From contig CAISWQ010000041.1 in assembly GCA_903889245.1 (NCBI GenBank), positions 1 to 43,237 on the forward strand: a DNA stretch of 43,237 bases, written 5' to 3'. Below the pieces are notes generated by a model. The model had not been told where the DNA came from and searched no databases. It saw only the letters and a list, made by a program, of their open reading frames with translations. This stretch comes from an uncultured Lentisphaerota bacterium (GTDB taxonomy: Bacteria > Verrucomicrobiota > Kiritimatiellia > CAIQIC01). Positions within the stretch are counted from its first letter, which is position 1, and each line of letters begins with the position of its first letter. The position numbers and the translations under genes are program-made. Positions 5,535-43,082 of the stretch are shown piece after piece.

Positions 5535-5642
5535 TTCCAAGGCTTGGAAAAAATGGCGCGGAATTTTCCAGGGCTTGGAAAAAAACCGTAGAAAAGTTCC
5601 AAGCCTTGGAAGTTTTGCGGCGAGATTTTCCAATGCCTGGAA
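5535..5642. repeat. Palindrome array B (four copies, exact 31-bp period)
   Basis: Copies lie at 5535-5549, 5566-5580, 5597-5611 and 5628-5642, with centres exactly 31 bp apart. The 16-bp spacers are unrelated to one another. The array begins 14 bp upstream of the start codon of the propeller/cytochrome gene, so it either lies in its leader or overlaps its promoter. Confidence 0.95.
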
Positions 5643-5755
5643 TCCCGACCGCGAAGCGCGTCGGGACCAATCCTTGGAACCGCAAATGGCGCCAATTACG
5701 CGAATGAAGACGTATCTGGAATTCGCGCTATTAGCGTAATTCGCGGTAGACATGC
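5643..5755. repeat. Two further intergenic inverted repeats
   Basis: TCCCGAC (5643-5649) pairs with GTCGGGA (5660-5666) in a small hairpin. After it, AATTACGC (5694-5701) and GCGTAATT (5734-5741) form an interrupted inverted repeat, with AATTCGCG-type words repeated inside. Both look like members of dispersed PVC repeat families. They fill the gap between array B and the end of the ceramidase-like gene and could act on its transcript end. Confidence 0.6.
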
Positions 5756-12663: not shown

Positions 12664-13917
12664 TCATCGGGTCTTCAGTGGAACAAGCTGGATGGTGGGC
12701 GGCGTGGTGCTGCGGAGGCGTAGTTCATCGCCCACGCTCAGGGACCATTCGCGGTCGGTCCCCTTGCCGAGGTCGAGCTGCCGGCCACCGCGTACCAGCG
12801 TCACGCCCTCGACCGCGCCACCCGACCAGCGCAGCGTGGCCGGATAGAGCCGCTGGATATGTGCGAAGTTGCTGCCGACGTTTTCCAGTTTCCGGAACGG
12901 CAGTGGCGGGCCGGTCCACGTGAGTTGATTCGAGGGCACGCGTGCGTGGTCGGTGAGGATCGTGTGTGGATCGTCCAGTTCGGCGTCCGCGAGGTTGATC
13001 TGGTTGCCCTCGGCGGTTTCCGTGAGGATCAGCGCGCGGCCTTGCGGGAAGCGCTGGTTACAGCCGCGCTTGCCCAGCTCGATGGTGTTGCGCTGGCCGC
13101 CAAGGACCACGCCGGTGACGTTCTTCGCGCCCTGATCCACACCGAGCGTGAACTGCATCCGGTTGCCGAACGCTTTTTCGCCGACGACCAACAACGTGCC
13201 GTTGTCGGCGTTGCTGTGCAGGTGTGGAATGCGGAGGTCGTTGAAGCTCACGGTGCCTTTCACTTCGACGCAGGTCTGGAAGTTCAGCACGCTGGCAAAA
13301 CAAAAGTCGCAGCACTGGATCGCCGTGTCGCTGCCATCGAACACGACACCTGTGCCCGCCTTGCGTTCGCCGGCCCGGAACGGCTGCGGGTCGGCCATGC
13401 CTTGGGAAAACACCTGTGTCTCGATCCACGCGGGGAAACCATCGAGCGGCACCGGCTTTTCCGCGCGTAGGCGCAGCGCTGCAGCCTTGCCGCCATAGAC
13501 CAGGATGCCGAGGCGATACTCGCAGTTCATCGCCGAGTCGAGCACGAGCAGATCCTTGTCGGGCGGCCCTTCCCAGTTGAGCACATACACGCCGCCCGTG
13601 ACGCGAAAATCCTGCGCGGCCGGAAAGCGGATCGTTTCGCGGATGTGATAGACGGGCTTGCGCCCGCCGAAGCCGCCCAGCACATGGAGATCGCGGGCTT
13701 CGCGTACGCAGCAGTCGAGCGCCTCCTGCCAGCCATCCGTGCGCGTACCCGGCGTCCGTGGTCCAAAGTCGCCCGAGCCATCGAACGCCAGCAGCACGGC
13801 AGCGGCGCGTTCCGCCCGCGCGCCGGCCGGCGGCGCCGCGTTGGCTGCCGCGCCTAGCGCGGCCAGCAACAGGATACTGGTCAGGATGGCCCGGCTGCGT
13901 GTGAGCGTTTCGTTCAT
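12664..13917 (-). CDS. Secreted protein with probable parallel beta-helix fold (unassigned)
   Basis: A 417-residue exported protein. ATG 13917 overlaps the stop of the upstream gene (ATGA) and starts a signal peptide of about 28 residues; the open frame reaches 14217 but that stretch is antisense-like and low quality. After the signal, LLAFDGSGDFGPRTPGTRTDGWQEALD resembles the opening of pectate-lyase-superfamily beta-helix proteins. Regular short strands with Asn/Gly turns follow (VSFNDLRIPHLHSNADNGTL, VVLGGQRNTIELGK, EGNQINLADAEL). No catalytic residues can be named. Its coupling to a toroid lyase-like protein suggests a role in polysaccharide binding or cleavage. Other beta-rich folds cannot be excluded. 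Confidence 0.7.
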   Translation of the reverse strand: MNETLTRSRAILTSILLLAALGAAANAAPPAGARAERAAAVLLAFDGSGDFGPRTPGTRTDGWQEALDCCVREARDLHVLGGFGGRKPVYHIRETIRFPAAQDFRVTGGVYVLNWEGPPDKDLLVLDSAMNCEYRLGILVYGGKAAALRLRAEKPVPLDGFPAWIETQVFSQGMADPQPFRAGERKAGTGVVFDGSDTAIQCCDFCFASVLNFQTCVEVKGTVSFNDLRIPHLHSNADNGTLLVVGEKAFGNRMQFTLGVDQGAKNVTGVVLGGQRNTIELGKRGCNQRFPQGRALILTETAEGNQINLADAELDDPHTILTDHARVPSNQLTWTGPPLPFRKLENVGSNFAHIQRLYPATLRWSGGAVEGVTLVRGGRQLDLGKGTDREWSLSVGDELRLRSTTPPTIQLVPLKTR

Positions 13918-15836
13918 CGCAAGATTTCTCCACCAGAGCCAAAGACGAGGGGTTGCGCGTGGCCCGCACCCGGCGGGTAGGCAGGCGTGATGGGACCGCG
14001 CACGGTCTTTTGCGGATTCCGCGGATCGCTGAAGTCCAGCTTCAGCGTTTCGTCGCCTTTGCGGATATACACCACGCCGCTGTCCCAGGCGGAGCGGATG
14101 AACGGCGAATCGTTCAAGAGCGCAGGCGCAAGGCCCACAGGCTGCCCGCTGATCTTGCCAGGCTTCAACGCGCCTTCGTGCGTGATGGTGGCGAACTGCA
14201 GCACACCCGCCGTCCACGTCACGGGCTGGGCCATCAGGGCCTGCTGGAAGGCGCGGAAGTCCCCGTTGTAGTCGGCGGCGTCGTTGATGACGGTGATGAC
14301 CGGGGCCTCTTCCCGCAGCAGCCGGACGAAACTTTTCGGACGCATTTGATCGCTATGTTTCCAGGGAGTCACCCACGCGTGGCCACCCACGATGTTGACC
14401 GCGGCAAAGGCCCCGCCGGATTTGACGAAGATCCAGCCTTGCGCTTCCTCCACCGTATCCAGCGCGGCGCTGAAGTAAATCCAGAGCTTGGGATCAACCT
14501 TCTCGTCGGCGACCGGCCCCCATTTCGTGGTGACCATGATGTTGCGGTCCTGGATGGTCTTGAAGGGATGGCTGATGTAGCCGGACTTGATATCGGCAGC
14601 GCTCTTGCCATCCATGCTGATGCGCGCCAGCGGGTGGTTGGCAAAGATGACGCCCTGCCACCGCTGCTGCCGGCTCTGCCATAGGACCTTGGCCGTGGCA
14701 TCGAACGCGTGCGAGCCCAGATGGAACTGGGCCGTGGCAAACCCGTTCCGGATTAGCGAGTGCTCCCGGTCAAGGGCGCGCCATTCCGGGGCAGCATCCT
14801 CCTGGGCCAGGGCGTTGAAGCCCGGGCAGCGCTTCGACCAGGCATAGGCGCCGCGCCCACCGGCCTCGCGGGCGAGCGCGACGATGGCCGGCGCGGGGTA
14901 ATAGCTGCTGGTGGCGCAGAAGTAGTTGGCGCGCGCCCGGAAGCCCGCGCCTTGGTTGAAGAGCAAGCCGTAGTAGATGGCCTCGAAGCCCTCCTCCTTG
15001 GTGCGGCTCTTCGGCCCGCCGCGCACCGAGCCGAGCGTTTCCTCGGCGAAGTTGGCGAAGACAAGGTCCAGGAACATATCCGCCTTGCGGCGCAGGACCG
15101 GGTCCTCGGCAAAGTCCCGCAGGTTGAGGAGGGCCTCGATGGTGTAGTTCTCGTAGCTGGAGCCATCCTCCGTGAACAAGCCCCGCCGGGCGCGCTGGTC
15201 GAGCCATTGATGCCAGTAGTCCCGGCGGGTTTCGTACTGCTGCCGCAGCGTCGAGCCATCGTCGTAGCGCAGCCCGGCGTAGGCGGGGAGGTCCTTGAGG
15301 AACTGGGCGACGAGAAAGTCGGACACCTTGCTCGTGACGTGGTGGTTCTCGGAACCCTCCGACATCCACACATCGCGCTGCGCCTCGGTGAGCTTGCCGT
15401 AGACCTTGGCGCACGCCCAAAAGGATTTTTCCAGGTTCGCCTGCGCCTGCGGCGCGAGCCGCCCCTTCAGCACGCCGGTACGGTCGTTGAAGAGCGCGTA
15501 GAGCCGCACGAAGGCTGACGAGAACAGGCTGAAGCCAAACTTCTCGTTCGACTTCCACCCGAAGCCATCCACCGCGAAGCACGCGTTCAACGCCTCGACG
15601 TGCTGCCCCAGTGCCAGGCCGGCGATCCCGACGCGCACCTTGATCACGTCGGCTTGCTTGAATCTGGCGCTGCCGAATTCATCGGCGGCGAGCTGGAGGG
15701 CGTGCCGCAGACGCTCCAGATAATCGGCAGGTAGCTGCTTCATCTCCGGCGGTGGCCACGGCGCATCATCGGCGGCGCGCAGCGCGGCTGCTGCCGCGAG
15801 CGACAGTACTGCGAGACATGTGAGGATCAGCTTCAC
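13914..15836 (-). CDS. Secreted (alpha/alpha)6-toroid protein, heparinase II/III- or lyase-like
   Basis: A 640-residue exported protein with Sec signal about 1-22. The N-terminal two-thirds is helical, with SEGSENHH at 159-166 (E163-N164-H165), a motif seen in toroid polysaccharide lyases, and SSYENYTIEALLNLRDFA, where Tyr may be catalytic. The C-terminal third (about 370-640) is beta-rich like the sandwich domain of heparinase II/III families. I infer an extracellular or periplasmic uronate-glycan lyase; the family is not certain. The start codon is GTG with no obvious ribosome-binding site; an ATG 13 bp upstream is out of frame. First gene of the seven-gene run; its leader begins next to a palindrome split by a MITE-like insert. 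Confidence 0.75.
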   Translation of the reverse strand: MKLILTCLAVLSLAAAAALRAADDAPWPPPEMKQLPADYLERLRHALQLAADEFGSARFKQADVIKVRVGIAGLALGQHVEALNACFAVDGFGWKSNEKFGFSLFSSAFVRLYALFNDRTGVLKGRLAPQAQANLEKSFWACAKVYGKLTEAQRDVWMSEGSENHHVTSKVSDFLVAQFLKDLPAYAGLRYDDGSTLRQQYETRRDYWHQWLDQRARRGLFTEDGSSYENYTIEALLNLRDFAEDPVLRRKADMFLDLVFANFAEETLGSVRGGPKSRTKEEGFEAIYYGLLFNQGAGFRARANYFCATSSYYPAPAIVALAREAGGRGAYAWSKRCPGFNALAQEDAAPEWRALDREHSLIRNGFATAQFHLGSHAFDATAKVLWQSRQQRWQGVIFANHPLARISMDGKSAADIKSGYISHPFKTIQDRNIMVTTKWGPVADEKVDPKLWIYFSAALDTVEEAQGWIFVKSGGAFAAVNIVGGHAWVTPWKHSDQMRPKSFVRLLREEAPVITVINDAADYNGDFRAFQQALMAQPVTWTAGVLQFATITHEGALKPGKISGQPVGLAPALLNDSPFIRSAWDSGVVYIRKGDETLKLDFSDPRNPQKTVRGPITPAYPPGAGHAQPLVFGSGGEILR

Positions 15837-15861: not shown

Positions 15862-16046
15862 TTCCAAGGCTTGATGGCACCGACAAAAGGCGAAGCGGAC
15901 GCGACGGAGCGCGTCCCTCCACGAACAAACAGGCCGTTTTGCTAAGCTTTCTGGAGGGCCACGCTCCGTCGTGGCCGGGATTCCGGACTTTTATCGGAGT
16001 CGTCAAGGCTTGGAAAATTTCGCAGCCCAGTTTCCAAGCCTTGGAA
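15862..16046. repeat. Palindrome array C, interrupted by an insertion
   Basis: The left part TTCCAAGGCTTG (15862-15873) and right part CAAGGCTTGGAA (16004-16015) are the two halves of one palindrome plus a 9-bp duplication, separated by a 130-bp insert. A second intact copy lies at 16032-16046, centred 31 bp from the rejoined palindrome. The array is between the toroid protein start (15836) and the oxidoreductase stop (16063). Confidence 0.85.
15874..16003. mobile_element. MITE/REPIN-like 130-bp element with TIRs and 9-bp target duplication
   Basis: The insert is flanked by direct copies of CAAGGCTTG (15865-15873 and 16004-16012). Its ends are imperfect inverted repeats: ATGGCACCGACAAAAG on the left and, reverse-complemented, ACGACTCCGATAAAAG on the right, 12 of 16 identical. 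Inside are two inverted REP arms, 15897-15920 and 15953-15976. Each can fold on its own (GGACGCG/CGCGTCC and GGCCACG/CGTGGCC around the loop ACGGA/TCCGT), and the stem differences are compensatory. No coding capacity. Confidence 0.8.
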
Positions 16047-16062
16047 ATTCGTACTCGCGATG

Positions 16063-17400
16063 TCATGCGATCTTCCAGCCATTGTGCATCGGCCGGTCGA
16101 GCAGCTTGTTCGCCTCGTCGTCGTTGAGGAAGCTCTCCTGCGCCGGGTCCCAGCGGAGTTTCCGGTTCAGCTTGATGGCGATCTGCTCGAGGTTGCACAG
16201 GATATCCGAACACACGGCGCTCTCGATCGGCGCCGCCGGCTTGGTCAGGCCCCGGACGGCATCGATGAAGTTGACGTGGTGGTTGGTGCTCTTGAACAGA
16301 TGCAGTTCATCGGGCCCGGTCTGCAATTTGATCAGCGACTTGGGCTCGGCATCCATGCCCTGGCGGTCGACGTGGATCCAGCCCTCGCTGCCGAGGAACA
16401 GCACGCCATGGCCGTGACCGTTCTTCTGGAGCGGATGTTTCCGGGCAGTCGCATCGTCCATGTGGATCAGCGTGACGCCGTTGGCGTAGCGGTTCTCGAC
16501 CTGCCAATGCGTGGCGCAGTCGGTGAGCATGTCCTTGGGGAACATGCCGCTGCCCGCGATTTCCGTCGGGCCGCTCACATCGGTGTTGTTGCCCCACTGC
16601 GCGATGTCGAGGTGATGCACGCCCCAGTTGCCGATCATGCCGAGGCAATAATCGGAGATGCAGTACCAGATGCTGTAGCCGCCCCAGCCCTGGCCCTTGC
16701 TATACGGCCGGCAGCGCTGGTAGCAGTAGGGCGCCAGCGGCGCAGGGCCGAGCCACATCGGATAGTCGAGCTCCTTCGGCACCGGCTCGGCGTCCTGCTT
16801 CGGATAGGTCCAACTGCCCGGCACGCCGACGAGGATCGTCTGCAGCTTGCCGATCTTTCCGTTGCGGACCAGCTCGCACGCGCGCCGGAACTGGCCGGTG
16901 GAGCGCTGCTGCGTGCCGAACTGGAACACGACGTTGCTGGCCTTGACCGCCTTGCGCAGCGCCTGCGCCGCGCGGACGCTCCAGCCGACGGGCTTCTCGC
17001 AATACATGTGCTTGCCGCGCCGCACCGCCTCCAGCGCCATCAGCACGTGCCAGTGATCCGGCGCGGTGATCTGGACGGCGTCGAGGTCCTTGCGCTGCAT
17101 CAGCTCGCGGAAATCCTTGAACGTGGCGCAGTCCTGGTTGCCGTAGAAATCGTCCACCGCCTTCTTGCCGCGGGCGAGCTGCGCGTCGTGGACATCGCAG
17201 ACCGCGACAACCTTCACGTCCGTATTGCCGCGGAACGTCTGCATGTTGCCCATGCCCTGGATGCCGAGGCCGACGCAGCCGAGGGTCACCTTGTCGTTCG
17301 CGCCGAACGCCGTGGCGGGAATGATGGTCGGCAGGCTGACCGCCGCGGCAGCCGCGGCGGAACTCTTCAGGAAATCACGGCGACTGATCTGCTTGTTCAT
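16063..17400 (-). CDS. Tat-exported Gfo/Idh/MocA oxidoreductase
   Basis: A 445-residue NAD(P)-dependent sugar dehydrogenase-type protein. The N-terminus MNKQISRRDFLKSS is a twin-arginine signal, so the folded, cofactor-loaded enzyme is exported. The Rossmann motif GCVGLGIQGMGNM follows, then VVAVCDVHD, and the family hallmark CEKPVGWS with the conserved Lys of EKP. GNWGVHHLDIAQWG provides the usual Asp/His pair. AAGG-type ribosome-binding sequence (AAAGGAA) stands 8 nt before ATG 17400. Members oxidise or epimerise sugar hydroxyls; exported PVC versions are numerous and mostly uncharacterised. It lies behind the second oxidoreductase gene, separated from it by array D. Confidence 0.93.
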   Translation of the reverse strand: MNKQISRRDFLKSSAAAAAAVSLPTIIPATAFGANDKVTLGCVGLGIQGMGNMQTFRGNTDVKVVAVCDVHDAQLARGKKAVDDFYGNQDCATFKDFRELMQRKDLDAVQITAPDHWHVLMALEAVRRGKHMYCEKPVGWSVRAAQALRKAVKASNVVFQFGTQQRSTGQFRRACELVRNGKIGKLQTILVGVPGSWTYPKQDAEPVPKELDYPMWLGPAPLAPYCYQRCRPYSKGQGWGGYSIWYCISDYCLGMIGNWGVHHLDIAQWGNNTDVSGPTEIAGSGMFPKDMLTDCATHWQVENRYANGVTLIHMDDATARKHPLQKNGHGHGVLFLGSEGWIHVDRQGMDAEPKSLIKLQTGPDELHLFKSTNHHVNFIDAVRGLTKPAAPIESAVCSDILCNLEQIAIKLNRKLRWDPAQESFLNDDEANKLLDRPMHNGWKIA

Positions 17401-17439: not shown

Positions 17440-17547
17440 TTCCAAGGCTTGGAAAATAAAACCGCCCTTTTCCCAGGCATTGGAAAAACTCGCGGAAATT
17501 TTTCCAGGGCTTGGGAAAACCGGACCGAAATTTTCCAAGCCTTGGAA
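17440..17547. repeat. Palindrome array D (four copies, about 31-bp period)
   Basis: Copies lie at 17440-17454, 17470-17485, 17502-17517 and 17533-17547; two have one extra base in an arm. Centre spacings are 30.5, 32 and 30.5 bp. The array fills the gap between two oxidoreductase genes and ends 39 bp upstream of the start at 17400. Confidence 0.93.
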
Positions 17548-26499: not shown

Positions 26500-26608
26500 T
26501 TCCAAGGCTTGGAACTTTCCCCGTCCGTTTTTCCAAGGCTCGGAACTTTTTATCGCCAACTTTTCCAATGCTTGGAAAAACCGCCCAACATTTTTCCAAT
26601 CCTTGGAA
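26500..26608. repeat. Palindrome array E (four copies, 31-32 bp period)
   Basis: Copies lie at 26500-26514, 26531-26545, 26563-26577 and 26594-26608; centre spacings 31, 32 and 31 bp. The outer copies are cleanest. It fills the gap between the ThuA-like start and the REP hairpin. Confidence 0.95.
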
Positions 26609-26678: not shown

Positions 26679-29600
26679 TTATTTCACGTCTTCGCAGACG
26701 ACACGGAAGCCGATGTTGAACACCGGCTGCCACGCGGGATAGGCGAAGCGATAGGAACTGGTCGCGCGCTGCGGGCGGTCATAGAACGAGCCGCCGCGCG
26801 CCACCTTGAGGCCGGCGTCGTCGCCGCGGTCGCGGCCGTCGTCGGCGTAGGGATAGGGTTTGTAGGTGGTGCGCGTCCATTCGGCGGCGTTGCCGTGCAG
26901 GTCGCACAGGCCCCACGCGTTCGGCGCGTAGCTGCCGCAGTTGGCGGTGACCATCGCGCCATCGTTGATGCTGGCGATGTGCGGAATCCATTTGGGCGAG
27001 TCGCGGGTGGTGAGGCCGCAGAGGCGCTCGTCGGCGAGGTTGGCGAGCTTGGTGAAGTCGGCGGCGGGCGCGCCGTAGCTCATCGGCGTGGCGGCGCCGG
27101 CGCGGCAGGCCCACTCCCACTGCGCCTCGGTCGGCAGCGCGAACTGCTTGCCGGTCTTTTTCGTCAGCCAGTCGCAGAAGGCCTGCGCGCGGTTCCACGC
27201 GAGGCGGACGGCGGGCTGGCGATCCTGGCGGACGGGGAACCCGGCGGTGCTGTGGTCCTTGTTGAACTCGGAGATGAAGCCGCTGTCGTGGGCAGGATCA
27301 AACAGGCCGTATTGCGCGTTGCTGATCTCGAACTTCGCCATGTAGAACGGCTTCTGGATTTTGACGCGGCAGGTCGGCTGCTCGTCGCGCGCGCCGCCGG
27401 CGTTGCCCATGATGAATTCGCCCGCAGGCACGAGCACGAGGTCCAGCTTCTGCGTCGCGTTCAGTTCCACGCTCATGGTCTTGGGCAGCCCGGCGCTGGC
27501 CTGCTTCTTCTGCGCCTCGGCGGCGTCGAAGGGCCAAACATTGGCGATGGCGGATGGCAGATTGTTGATTTGTGGTGGTGGCGCCGGTTTCACAAACGCG
27601 ACGGGGGCGGGCGGCGGAGTGGGGTAGGCTTCGGGGTCGAGGTCTTCGTAGGCGTACTTGGTGCGCGCGGCGATGCGCTTGGCGTGATAGTCGTTGGCGA
27701 TCTGGCGGTGCTCGCCCCAGGTGCCGTGGTCGGGCACGTTCAAATCAATCCACGTGATCAGGCGGTCCCACGCCTCGGCGTCGAGCTGCACGCCGTGGTG
27801 GCCCTTGCGCAGCATCTGGACGAGTTCGGAGGTCTCGGCGGAAAATTCGAGCGGCATCTGCATGTAGTAGCTGCTCTCCGGGCCGGGCCGGCGGACGTAG
27901 GGATGGAGCGCGAGGTAGGCCACGTCGAACGGCAGCACGCGCTTCTTCTTGCCGCCGAGTGCCGCTTCTTCGCGGCCGGGCGAGAAGTTCGGCAGCACCC
28001 GGCCATCGGCCCGCGCGGCGCCGCTGTGACAGCCGACGCAATACTTGTCCAGCACCGGCTGGACCTCGCGCGGGAAGCTGAAGCCGCGGCGCGAGCCGTG
28101 CCACGGCGTGATATCGGCCGGCGCGGAACGCGCGGCGAGCGTGCTGCGCGGCGCGGGGGTCTCATCCATCTTCTCGTGGCAGCCGACGCATGAGAGGCGC
28201 TCGCCGGGCTGCGCGCTGAACCAGCTCCGCATGATCTGCAAGGCACGGCCCTCGCCATCGAGCGGCTGGACGGCGAGCGGCGTGTTCGCCGGCACCTTGA
28301 AGAACGCGGAGCCGTCGGTGTTCACCGGCACCGTGCCGATGACGCGGTGCACGTCCCACGGACCGTCCACGCCGATGTTGATGTGGCCGCCCATGCGGCG
28401 GTAGGCAAAGTGATACTCGAACACGCGCAGGCTCTTGACCGTGCCGGGCGGCACGCCGGCGAGCCCGCGGCCCGCGTAGATGTCGGCGAGATAGACCGTG
28501 GCCTCGCGCTCGCCGGGCTTGACGCGGTCGGGGATGATCGGCGGGCGCGGCGTGGCGCGCAGCGGGACCGGCTCGAAGAGCGCGGTGCCGGGCTGCTCCA
28601 GCAGCGGCACGAAGTTGTCGAACACGTCCACGAGGTAGAGACCCCACGGCGACTGCGGCGTGGGCTTGCAGGAGACGAGGATATATTTCTCGCTCAACGG
28701 GAACGGGTGCAGGAATTTCGGCCAGCTCGCGTTGACCAGCCCGTCCTGGATGATCGGCTCGACTTTTTTGCCGCGGCCGGGGATGCGCTGCACCGCGCCC
28801 TCGGCCTCGAAGCGGCCCTTGGCCACATCGAACACGATCAGCTCGCCCATGCGCGGCACGCCGTGGTGGCCGGAGATGACGCCGACGAGTTTGGTCGCGT
28901 GGTTCGGCACCGGCCGCGCGTAGAAGACGCCGTTCGGCCAATGCGAGTTGCTGCCATAGACCGCGGACTGCGCGGTGCCGTCGGGATTCATCGCGAACAG
29001 CAGGCGCGTGAAGTAATGCGGCGTGTCGGTATATTCCCAGCGCGAGTAGAGGATGCGGCCGTCGTTCATCATGCGCGGACACCAGTTGTGCTCCTGGTCA
29101 TAGCAGAGCATGCGGATCGCGCCGTTGGTCTCCATCAGGTAGAGGTTGCCCACGTCGTTGCCGCCGCCGACGCACGGCACGCCCTGGAAGCCGGCGGTGG
29201 AATCGAACACGATGCGGCCGTTCGGCAGATAGCAGGAGTCGTAGTGGTCAATGTCGTCCTCGTCCGGCGTCACCTGCCGCAGGCCGGAGCCATCGGCGCG
29301 GACTTCCCAGATATGCCAGCGCTCGGGGCCCATCTGCACCTGTTTCTTGCCCTTGGCGTTCTCCACCACATTGGTTTTCCGCACCGGCATCGTGAACATC
29401 AACCGATCGGCATCGAAGTGCAGGCAGATATCGCCCAGGAAGACGCTGTCGGACGGACGGAACAGCGGTGTCAGTTTGCCCTCGGGCCGCACCGGCGAAA
29501 GCACGGCGATTTCGTTATCGAATTTGCCGCGCAGGACGTCATCGCCCTGCCAGTTCTGCGGCAGGCCGAGGCCGCCGCCCTGCGAATTGTTCGGATCGGC

Positions 29601-30017: not shown

Positions 30018-30095
30018 TTCCAAAGGTTGGAAAACTGCGGCGCGGATTGTTCCAAACCTTGGAGAAAAGAGCCACTGCTTTTCCAAGCCTTGGAA
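30018..30095. repeat. Palindrome array F (three copies, 31-32 bp period)
   Basis: Copies lie at 30018-30032 (TTCCAAAGGTTGGAA), 30050-30064 and 30081-30095; centre spacings 32 and 31 bp. It starts 12 bp upstream of the start codon of the FGE-fusion gene, and the ribosome-binding AAGGA abuts its nearest copy. Confidence 0.93.
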
Positions 30096-38477: not shown

Positions 38478-38524
38478 TTCCAAGCCTTGGAAAAACCGGC
38501 CGCTCCGCTTTCCAATCCCTGGAA
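38478..38524. repeat. Palindrome array G (two copies, 32-bp period)
   Basis: Copies lie at 38478-38492 and 38510-38524, centres 32 bp apart. It begins 1 bp after the transglutaminase-like stop and ends 30 bp before the -35 of the next gene, the only array here in front of a plus-strand gene other than array A. Confidence 0.88.
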
Positions 38525-43036: not shown

Positions 43037-43082
43037 TTCCAAGGATTGGAAAATTTTCCGCCGGTTTTTCCAAGGTTTGGAA
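43037..43082. repeat. Palindrome array H (two copies, 31-bp period)
   Basis: Copies lie at 43037-43051 (TTCCAAGGATTGGAA) and 43068-43082 (TTCCAAGGTTTGGAA), centres 31 bp apart. It starts 12 bp upstream of the GH115-like start. The probable IS end begins 17 bp further on. Confidence 0.9.

Follow-up and report, generated by a model that had tools for sequence, protein, structure and literature searches.

A probable MITE-like insertion with a REPIN interior in a palindrome array of an uncultured Lentisphaerota bacterium

In the genome of an uncultured Lentisphaerota bacterium (GenBank assembly GCA_903889245.1; here G000), a short palindrome is interrupted by 130 bp of DNA. The window analysed here is the whole stretch of 43,237 nucleotides of contig CAISWQ010000041.1 (C41), and its + strand at 15862–16015 reads TTCCAAGGCTTG / ATGGCACCGACAAAAG...CTTTTATCGGAGTCGT / CAAGGCTTGGAA. 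The locus raises the question of whether a mobile element split a palindrome that already stood there and, if so, which unit moved. The original prediction was that a MITE-like element of 130 bp had inserted into an existing palindrome, splitting it and producing a target duplication of 9 bp, a claim that is backed here by other copies of the element and by empty orthologous loci.

Results

Structure of the insert

The features of the element and its surroundings are listed in Table 1. The two copies of the direct repeat CAAGGCTTG are identical (9/9), and removal of the insert together with one of them gives TTCCAAGGCTTGGAA, a perfect 15-bp palindrome. The 130 bp contain neither a transposase gene nor any other gene. 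Inside lie two REPs, inverted and 85% complementary over 26 nt, whose stems carry compensated pairs (GGACGCG/CGCGTCC in one REP versus GGCCACG/CGTGGCC in the other). The CTCCA/TGGAG tags are conserved on both of these inverted REPs, which identifies the interior as a REPIN, and about 40 further REP/REPIN matches were found in the genome. All base-level details of the original prediction (the 9/9 repeat, the 12/16 ends, the inverted REPs, the compensated stems and the restored palindrome) proved right.

Table 1. Features at the insertion locus (window positions) and the other paired copies in the same genome (contig positions). TIR, terminal inverted repeat.
Feature	Position	Strand	Remarks
640-aa ORF	13914–15836	-	Starts 26 bp from the element site; no Pfam family
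Left part of split palindrome, TTCCAAGGCTTG	15862–15873	+	Read from the sequence; same split point in other copies
9-bp duplication, left copy, CAAGGCTTG	15865–15873		
Left TIR, ATGGCACCGACAAAAG	15874–15889	+	18/19 versus consensus GATGGCACCGACAAAAGTC
TIR-REP linker	15890–15895	+	Common to the G002:C188 and G002:C125 copies (pairwise alignment)
First REP of REPIN	15896–15921	-	Hairpin, CTCCA tag pointing inward; inverted repeat I2
REPIN spacer	15922–15951		Part of it (TTTTGCYAAGCTT) common to the G002:C188 copy
Second REP of REPIN, inverted	15952–15977	+	Two compensated stem pairs versus first REP
Right TIR, CTTTTATCGGAGTCGT	15988–16003	-	12/16 inverted match to left TIR; 15/19 versus family consensus
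Right part of split palindrome, CAAGGCTTGGAA	16004–16015	+	Read from the sequence
9-bp duplication, right copy, CAAGGCTTG	16004–16012		
Intact neighbouring palindrome, TTCCAAGCCTTGGAA	16032–16046		31 bp from right part of split palindrome (array register)
Gfo/Idh/MocA oxidoreductase with TAT signal	16063–17400	-	Pfam PF19051, PF01408, PF10518; upstream gene, 3' end toward the array
Paired copy	C122 10906–11056		
Paired copy	C103 about 44829–44966		
Paired copy	C16 about 99632–99818		

As a small, gene-free element with TIRs (12/16 here and near-perfect in the C122 copy), the insert has the form of a MITE. A plain REPIN would move alone, with neither TIRs nor a duplication; because the 130-bp unit has both, while most other REPs have no TIR, it is not classed as one. 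It also differs from a REP-targeting insertion sequence, since no transposase gene is present in the 130 bp and the 15-bp palindrome that was hit is unlike REPs. The oxidoreductase gene next to the element has very many paralogues: 87 Gfo/Idh/MocA-type matches were counted in the genome.

A 9-mer repeat by itself is not rare in the window, where 187 direct repeats 60–220 bp apart were counted versus about 81 per shuffled window, and a repeat that restores the palindrome is rare. Two repeats in the window restore a perfect 15-bp palindrome, compared with none in 10 shuffles; the second of them, at 28013, consists of G and C only. Inverted matches of at least 12/16 occurred in 37 of 200,000 random pairs. 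Taken one at a time, the duplications are weak evidence because the target is almost self-complementary, a duplication being distinguishable from an inverted repeat of the ends only at the central base of this near-perfect palindrome, and it is the empty sites described below that bear the argument.

The target palindrome and its arrays

Sequences of the type TTCCAAGSCTTGGAA with at most three mismatches occur 28 times in the window, versus 0.7 expected, and with at most two mismatches about 2,130 times in the 5.26-Mb genome, versus 7–9 for the reversed control. In a 1.24-Mb sample of the genome, which also served for the counts of TIR surroundings and of TIR-bearing REPs below, neighbouring palindromes stood 31 or 32 bp from each other in 395 cases, a distance equal to three helical turns, and formed arrays of one to five. 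This helical phasing suggests that a protein may bind the arrays from one side of the helix. Arrays with the 31–32-bp spacing stand in the window at 247–292, 5535–5679, 17440–17547, 26500–26608, 30018–30095, 38478–38524 and 43037–43082. A variant array at 14648–14914 of locus L088 (G000:C28) has seven palindromes exactly 42 bp apart, so that four helical turns, not three, separate them. No clear preference of the arrays for gene starts was seen in a crude ORF-based test, and our literature search returned no description of TTCCAAGSCTTGGAA-type palindromes.

Other copies with the same ends

Searches with the end patterns detected four paired-TIR copies in G000, namely the one in the window and those on C122, C103 and C16, and more in relatives, a dispersal that is typical of a MITE. 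The original prediction had named a search for further copies with the same TIRs and 9-bp duplications as its check and their lack as its refutation; three more paired copies are thus present. Copy lengths ranged from 120 to 165 bp, and the approximately 18-bp TIR consensus of the family is GATGGCDCCGACAAAAGTC. All four copies are located in a TTCCAAGSCTTGGAA palindrome, which is split at the identical point on both sides in C41, C122 and C16; one side of the C103 copy has decayed. The CAAGGCTTG duplication is exact at C41 and C122, matches at 8/9 positions at C16, and is imperfect or one-sided at C103, G002:C188 and G003:C41. A degenerate one-sided copy was also noted on C103 near 41.2 kb.

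Ends and target go together beyond the paired copies. In the 1.24-Mb sample, TIR matches of at least 15/19 adjoined CAAGSCTT in 7/7 cases, counting a decayed form at one C103 end, and matches of 14/19 did so in 0/5. About a dozen one- or two-ended copies, many of them truncated on one side, were found in four of the five genomes of relatives in the family, and nearly all adjoin CAAG(S)CTTG, intact or decayed. No copy with these TIRs was detected in 22 other genomes of the order.

Empty sites and the order of events

Orthologous sites were sought with flank pieces of the C122, C103 and C16 sites as queries, and orthology was judged by matching flanks in draft genomes. The empty sites in relatives that the original prediction had proposed to look for were found for C122 (in the congeners G003 and G002) and for C16 (in G003). 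The C122 site corresponds in G003:C49 to an uninterrupted palindrome in a two-palindrome array with both flanks collinear, and in G002:C158 to an uninterrupted palindrome with a matched left flank, where the array and the following intergenic sequence could be aligned. The second palindrome of this site follows 32 bp on in both relatives, versus 31 bp in G000. The C16 site corresponds in G003:C173 to an uninterrupted array of three palindromes, and there the gene on the far side differs. In the reverse direction, the G000 array on C100 has no counterpart of the element that stands in its G002:C57 orthologue. An exact 9-bp duplication (C41 and C122) combined with empty orthologous sites (C122 and C16) is the trace that insertion of a MITE leaves.

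For the window locus itself, no close empty site was found in the genus, where the flanking oxidoreductase gene has no orthologue and only paralogues of at most 49% identity. A distant homologue of the locus (L207, VGWF01000022.1) carries a 79%-identical oxidoreductase gene and, behind it, two intact palindromes with a spacing of 32 bp; the next gene after that array differs from the one in the window, and L207 is supportive only. No clear orthologous site could be read for C103, for which the query contained one flank. Because uninterrupted arrays occupy the orthologous loci that have no element, the palindrome arrays are, as judged from these alignments, older than the insertions at the sites that could be compared, in agreement with the original prediction.

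The same sites bear on a reading in which the half-palindromes are the true ends of an inverted-repeat element of about 154 bp with TTCC...GGAA termini, and no target was duplicated. The inverted match does continue through the palindrome (28-nt arms, 82%), as this reading would have it, but relatives have a single intact palindrome, in array register, at the insertion points of C122 and C16; furthermore, the central base is identical on both sides at C41 and C122, that is, direct and not inverted, and the outer flanks resemble ordinary palindrome flanks. We regard this reading as extremely improbable.

Very unlikely as well is that a cassette spread between palindromes by recombination or gene conversion, with the 12-bp half-sites as homology, a duplication carried over from the donor and no transposase. 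A homology of 12 bases is very short for RecA-type exchange, and TIRs that are conserved around divergent interiors look like the recognition sites of an enzyme. In favour of such exchange are the extreme abundance of the palindromes and the G003:C41 copy, whose halves correspond to palindromes at two separate G000 loci, but that join may be an error of the draft assembly.

The G003:C41 copy (L185) has flanks that map to two G000 contigs, each with its own uninterrupted palindrome (position 16826 of L124, on C16, and position 365 of L098, on C47). The join may reflect either recombination between copies or a draft-assembly misjoin. The repeats of this copy were rejected as evidence for a duplication because its two flanks lie on different G000 contigs.

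The unit that moves

The copy in the window can be aligned with that of the congeneric G002:C188 from end to end, REPIN spacer and TIR-REP linker included, and the TIR-REP junctions are common to C122, C103 and G004:C249, the last from another genus. The unit of inheritance is therefore the TIR, the linker and the REPIN together, and such whole units, with their spacer, turn up again at unrelated loci, in other species and in another genus. The REP cargo varies, being of the GGAG type in C41, of GTAG types in C122 and C103, and of others in C16 and G002. In the 1.24-Mb sample, a TIR stands outside the REP in 2/33 type-A REPs and in 2–3 of about 40 (up to 3/42) for each type-B form; with so few TIR-bearing REPs, movement as TIR units is not a property of the REP families in general. 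The proposal in the original prediction that the REP family moves as a TIR-bearing unit is thus not supported, given that few REPs have TIRs, that the TIRs enclose several REP types and that the RAYT genes have none.

Two Y1-transposase genes are present in the genome. The RAYT on C113 (L241, G000:C113:1362–1595) has GTAG REPs on its flanks and scores above the NCBIfam cut-off for REP-associated tyrosine transposases, while that on C91 (L240, G000:C91:33535–33840) has a different REP, GGTGGAACGCGACCTCCGGGCGCGTT, on its flanks and scores just below the same cut-off. Hairpins like the REPs of the C91 RAYT stand between palindromes 84 and 94 bp apart, respectively, at two other G000 loci (4669–4767 of L111, on C65, and 15739–15847 of L119, on C102), with neither TIRs nor a 9-bp repeat.

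These genes make it conceivable, although we consider it unlikely, that a RAYT system moves the whole unit, in which case a special class of REPINs would have the TIRs as its outer tails, by analogy with TIRYTs, and the 9-bp repeat would be incidental. REP hairpins are enclosed by every paired copy, the GTAG REPs inside C122 and C103 also flank one of the two RAYT genes, and TIRYTs (TIR-flanked RAYT-like genes) and composite REP-TIR structures are on record (PMC3733652). However, no TIRs were found at either RAYT gene, the TIRs are common to several REP types, and REPs are generally without TIRs. To our knowledge, moreover, IS200/IS605-type HUH transposases are not expected to produce target duplications, which counts against a RAYT as the mover. 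The RAYT or transposase gene with matching ends that the original prediction had suggested looking for was not found, and neither six draft genomes of the family nor a search at the order level yielded a TIR pair at insertion-sequence distance that could mark an autonomous parent. The parents of MITEs are often lost, and a transposase source with matching TIRs is supportive of a MITE without strictly defining it.

Discussion

As a whole, we conclude with a probability of roughly 0.78 that the 130-bp insert is a copy of a small, non-autonomous, MITE-like family with TIRs of about 18 bp, a REPIN interior and a palindrome as its target. The 9-bp repeat is symmetric about the dyad axis of the palindrome and the insertion point is precise. 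A DDE-type transposase would act in trans on the TIRs and cut the two target strands 9 nt apart, symmetrically about the dyad, and the duplication would arise when the gaps were repaired. The palindrome, or a protein binding it, would direct the choice of target, so that insertions would stay intergenic. REPINs would ride inside as cargo, and most REPs would spread separately, presumably via RAYTs. A bolder, rather doubtful version would nest one transposition system inside another: a TIR element homing to genome-wide arrays of palindromes, regulatory or structural, would have its interior filled again and again by REPINs from several RAYT lineages, and the protein that binds the palindrome would steer the transposase toward safe sites between genes.

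The locus and its relatives are a clear example from nature, complete with empty sites, of a mini-transposon that enters an abundant palindrome at one symmetric position. They also place the repeat layers of one genome in order, the palindrome array coming before an element that itself carries a REPIN, and make testable whether the palindrome arrays bind a protein that recruits a transposase. In the literature searched, we found no description of a MITE with a REPIN inside and a separate palindrome array as its target.

Three known systems are close to it. REPINs have been described (PMC3116915), as have GTAG REPs (PMC3733652), and the present genome resembles those systems in the REPIN cargo and in its two REP-flanked RAYT genes; known REPINs have no such TIRs or target duplication, and only a few percent of the REPs in this genome lie inside a TIR unit. 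MITEAba12 of Acinetobacter (111–114 bp, 9-bp target duplication, proposed parent ISAba12; PMC6382973) is likewise small and gene-free, with imperfect TIRs of about 16–18 bp, a 9-bp duplication and inferred movement in trans (PMC6382973), but it has no recognisable target motif and a parent has been proposed for it, whereas the present family has one palindrome as its target, a REPIN interior and a parent that was not found. ISRm22 (IS4 family, 6-bp repeats) and ISPsy8 (IS3 family, 3-bp repeats) insert at the axis of REP palindromes (PMC1525189), and copies of REP-targeting insertion sequences with unmatched repeats have been ascribed to recombination (PMC1525189). Like the present family, they enter an abundant intergenic palindrome at its axis of symmetry and duplicate the target, but these insertion sequences are autonomous and have REPs as their targets, whereas here a non-autonomous carrier of REPs is found in an array of non-REP palindromes, with a duplication of 9 bp.
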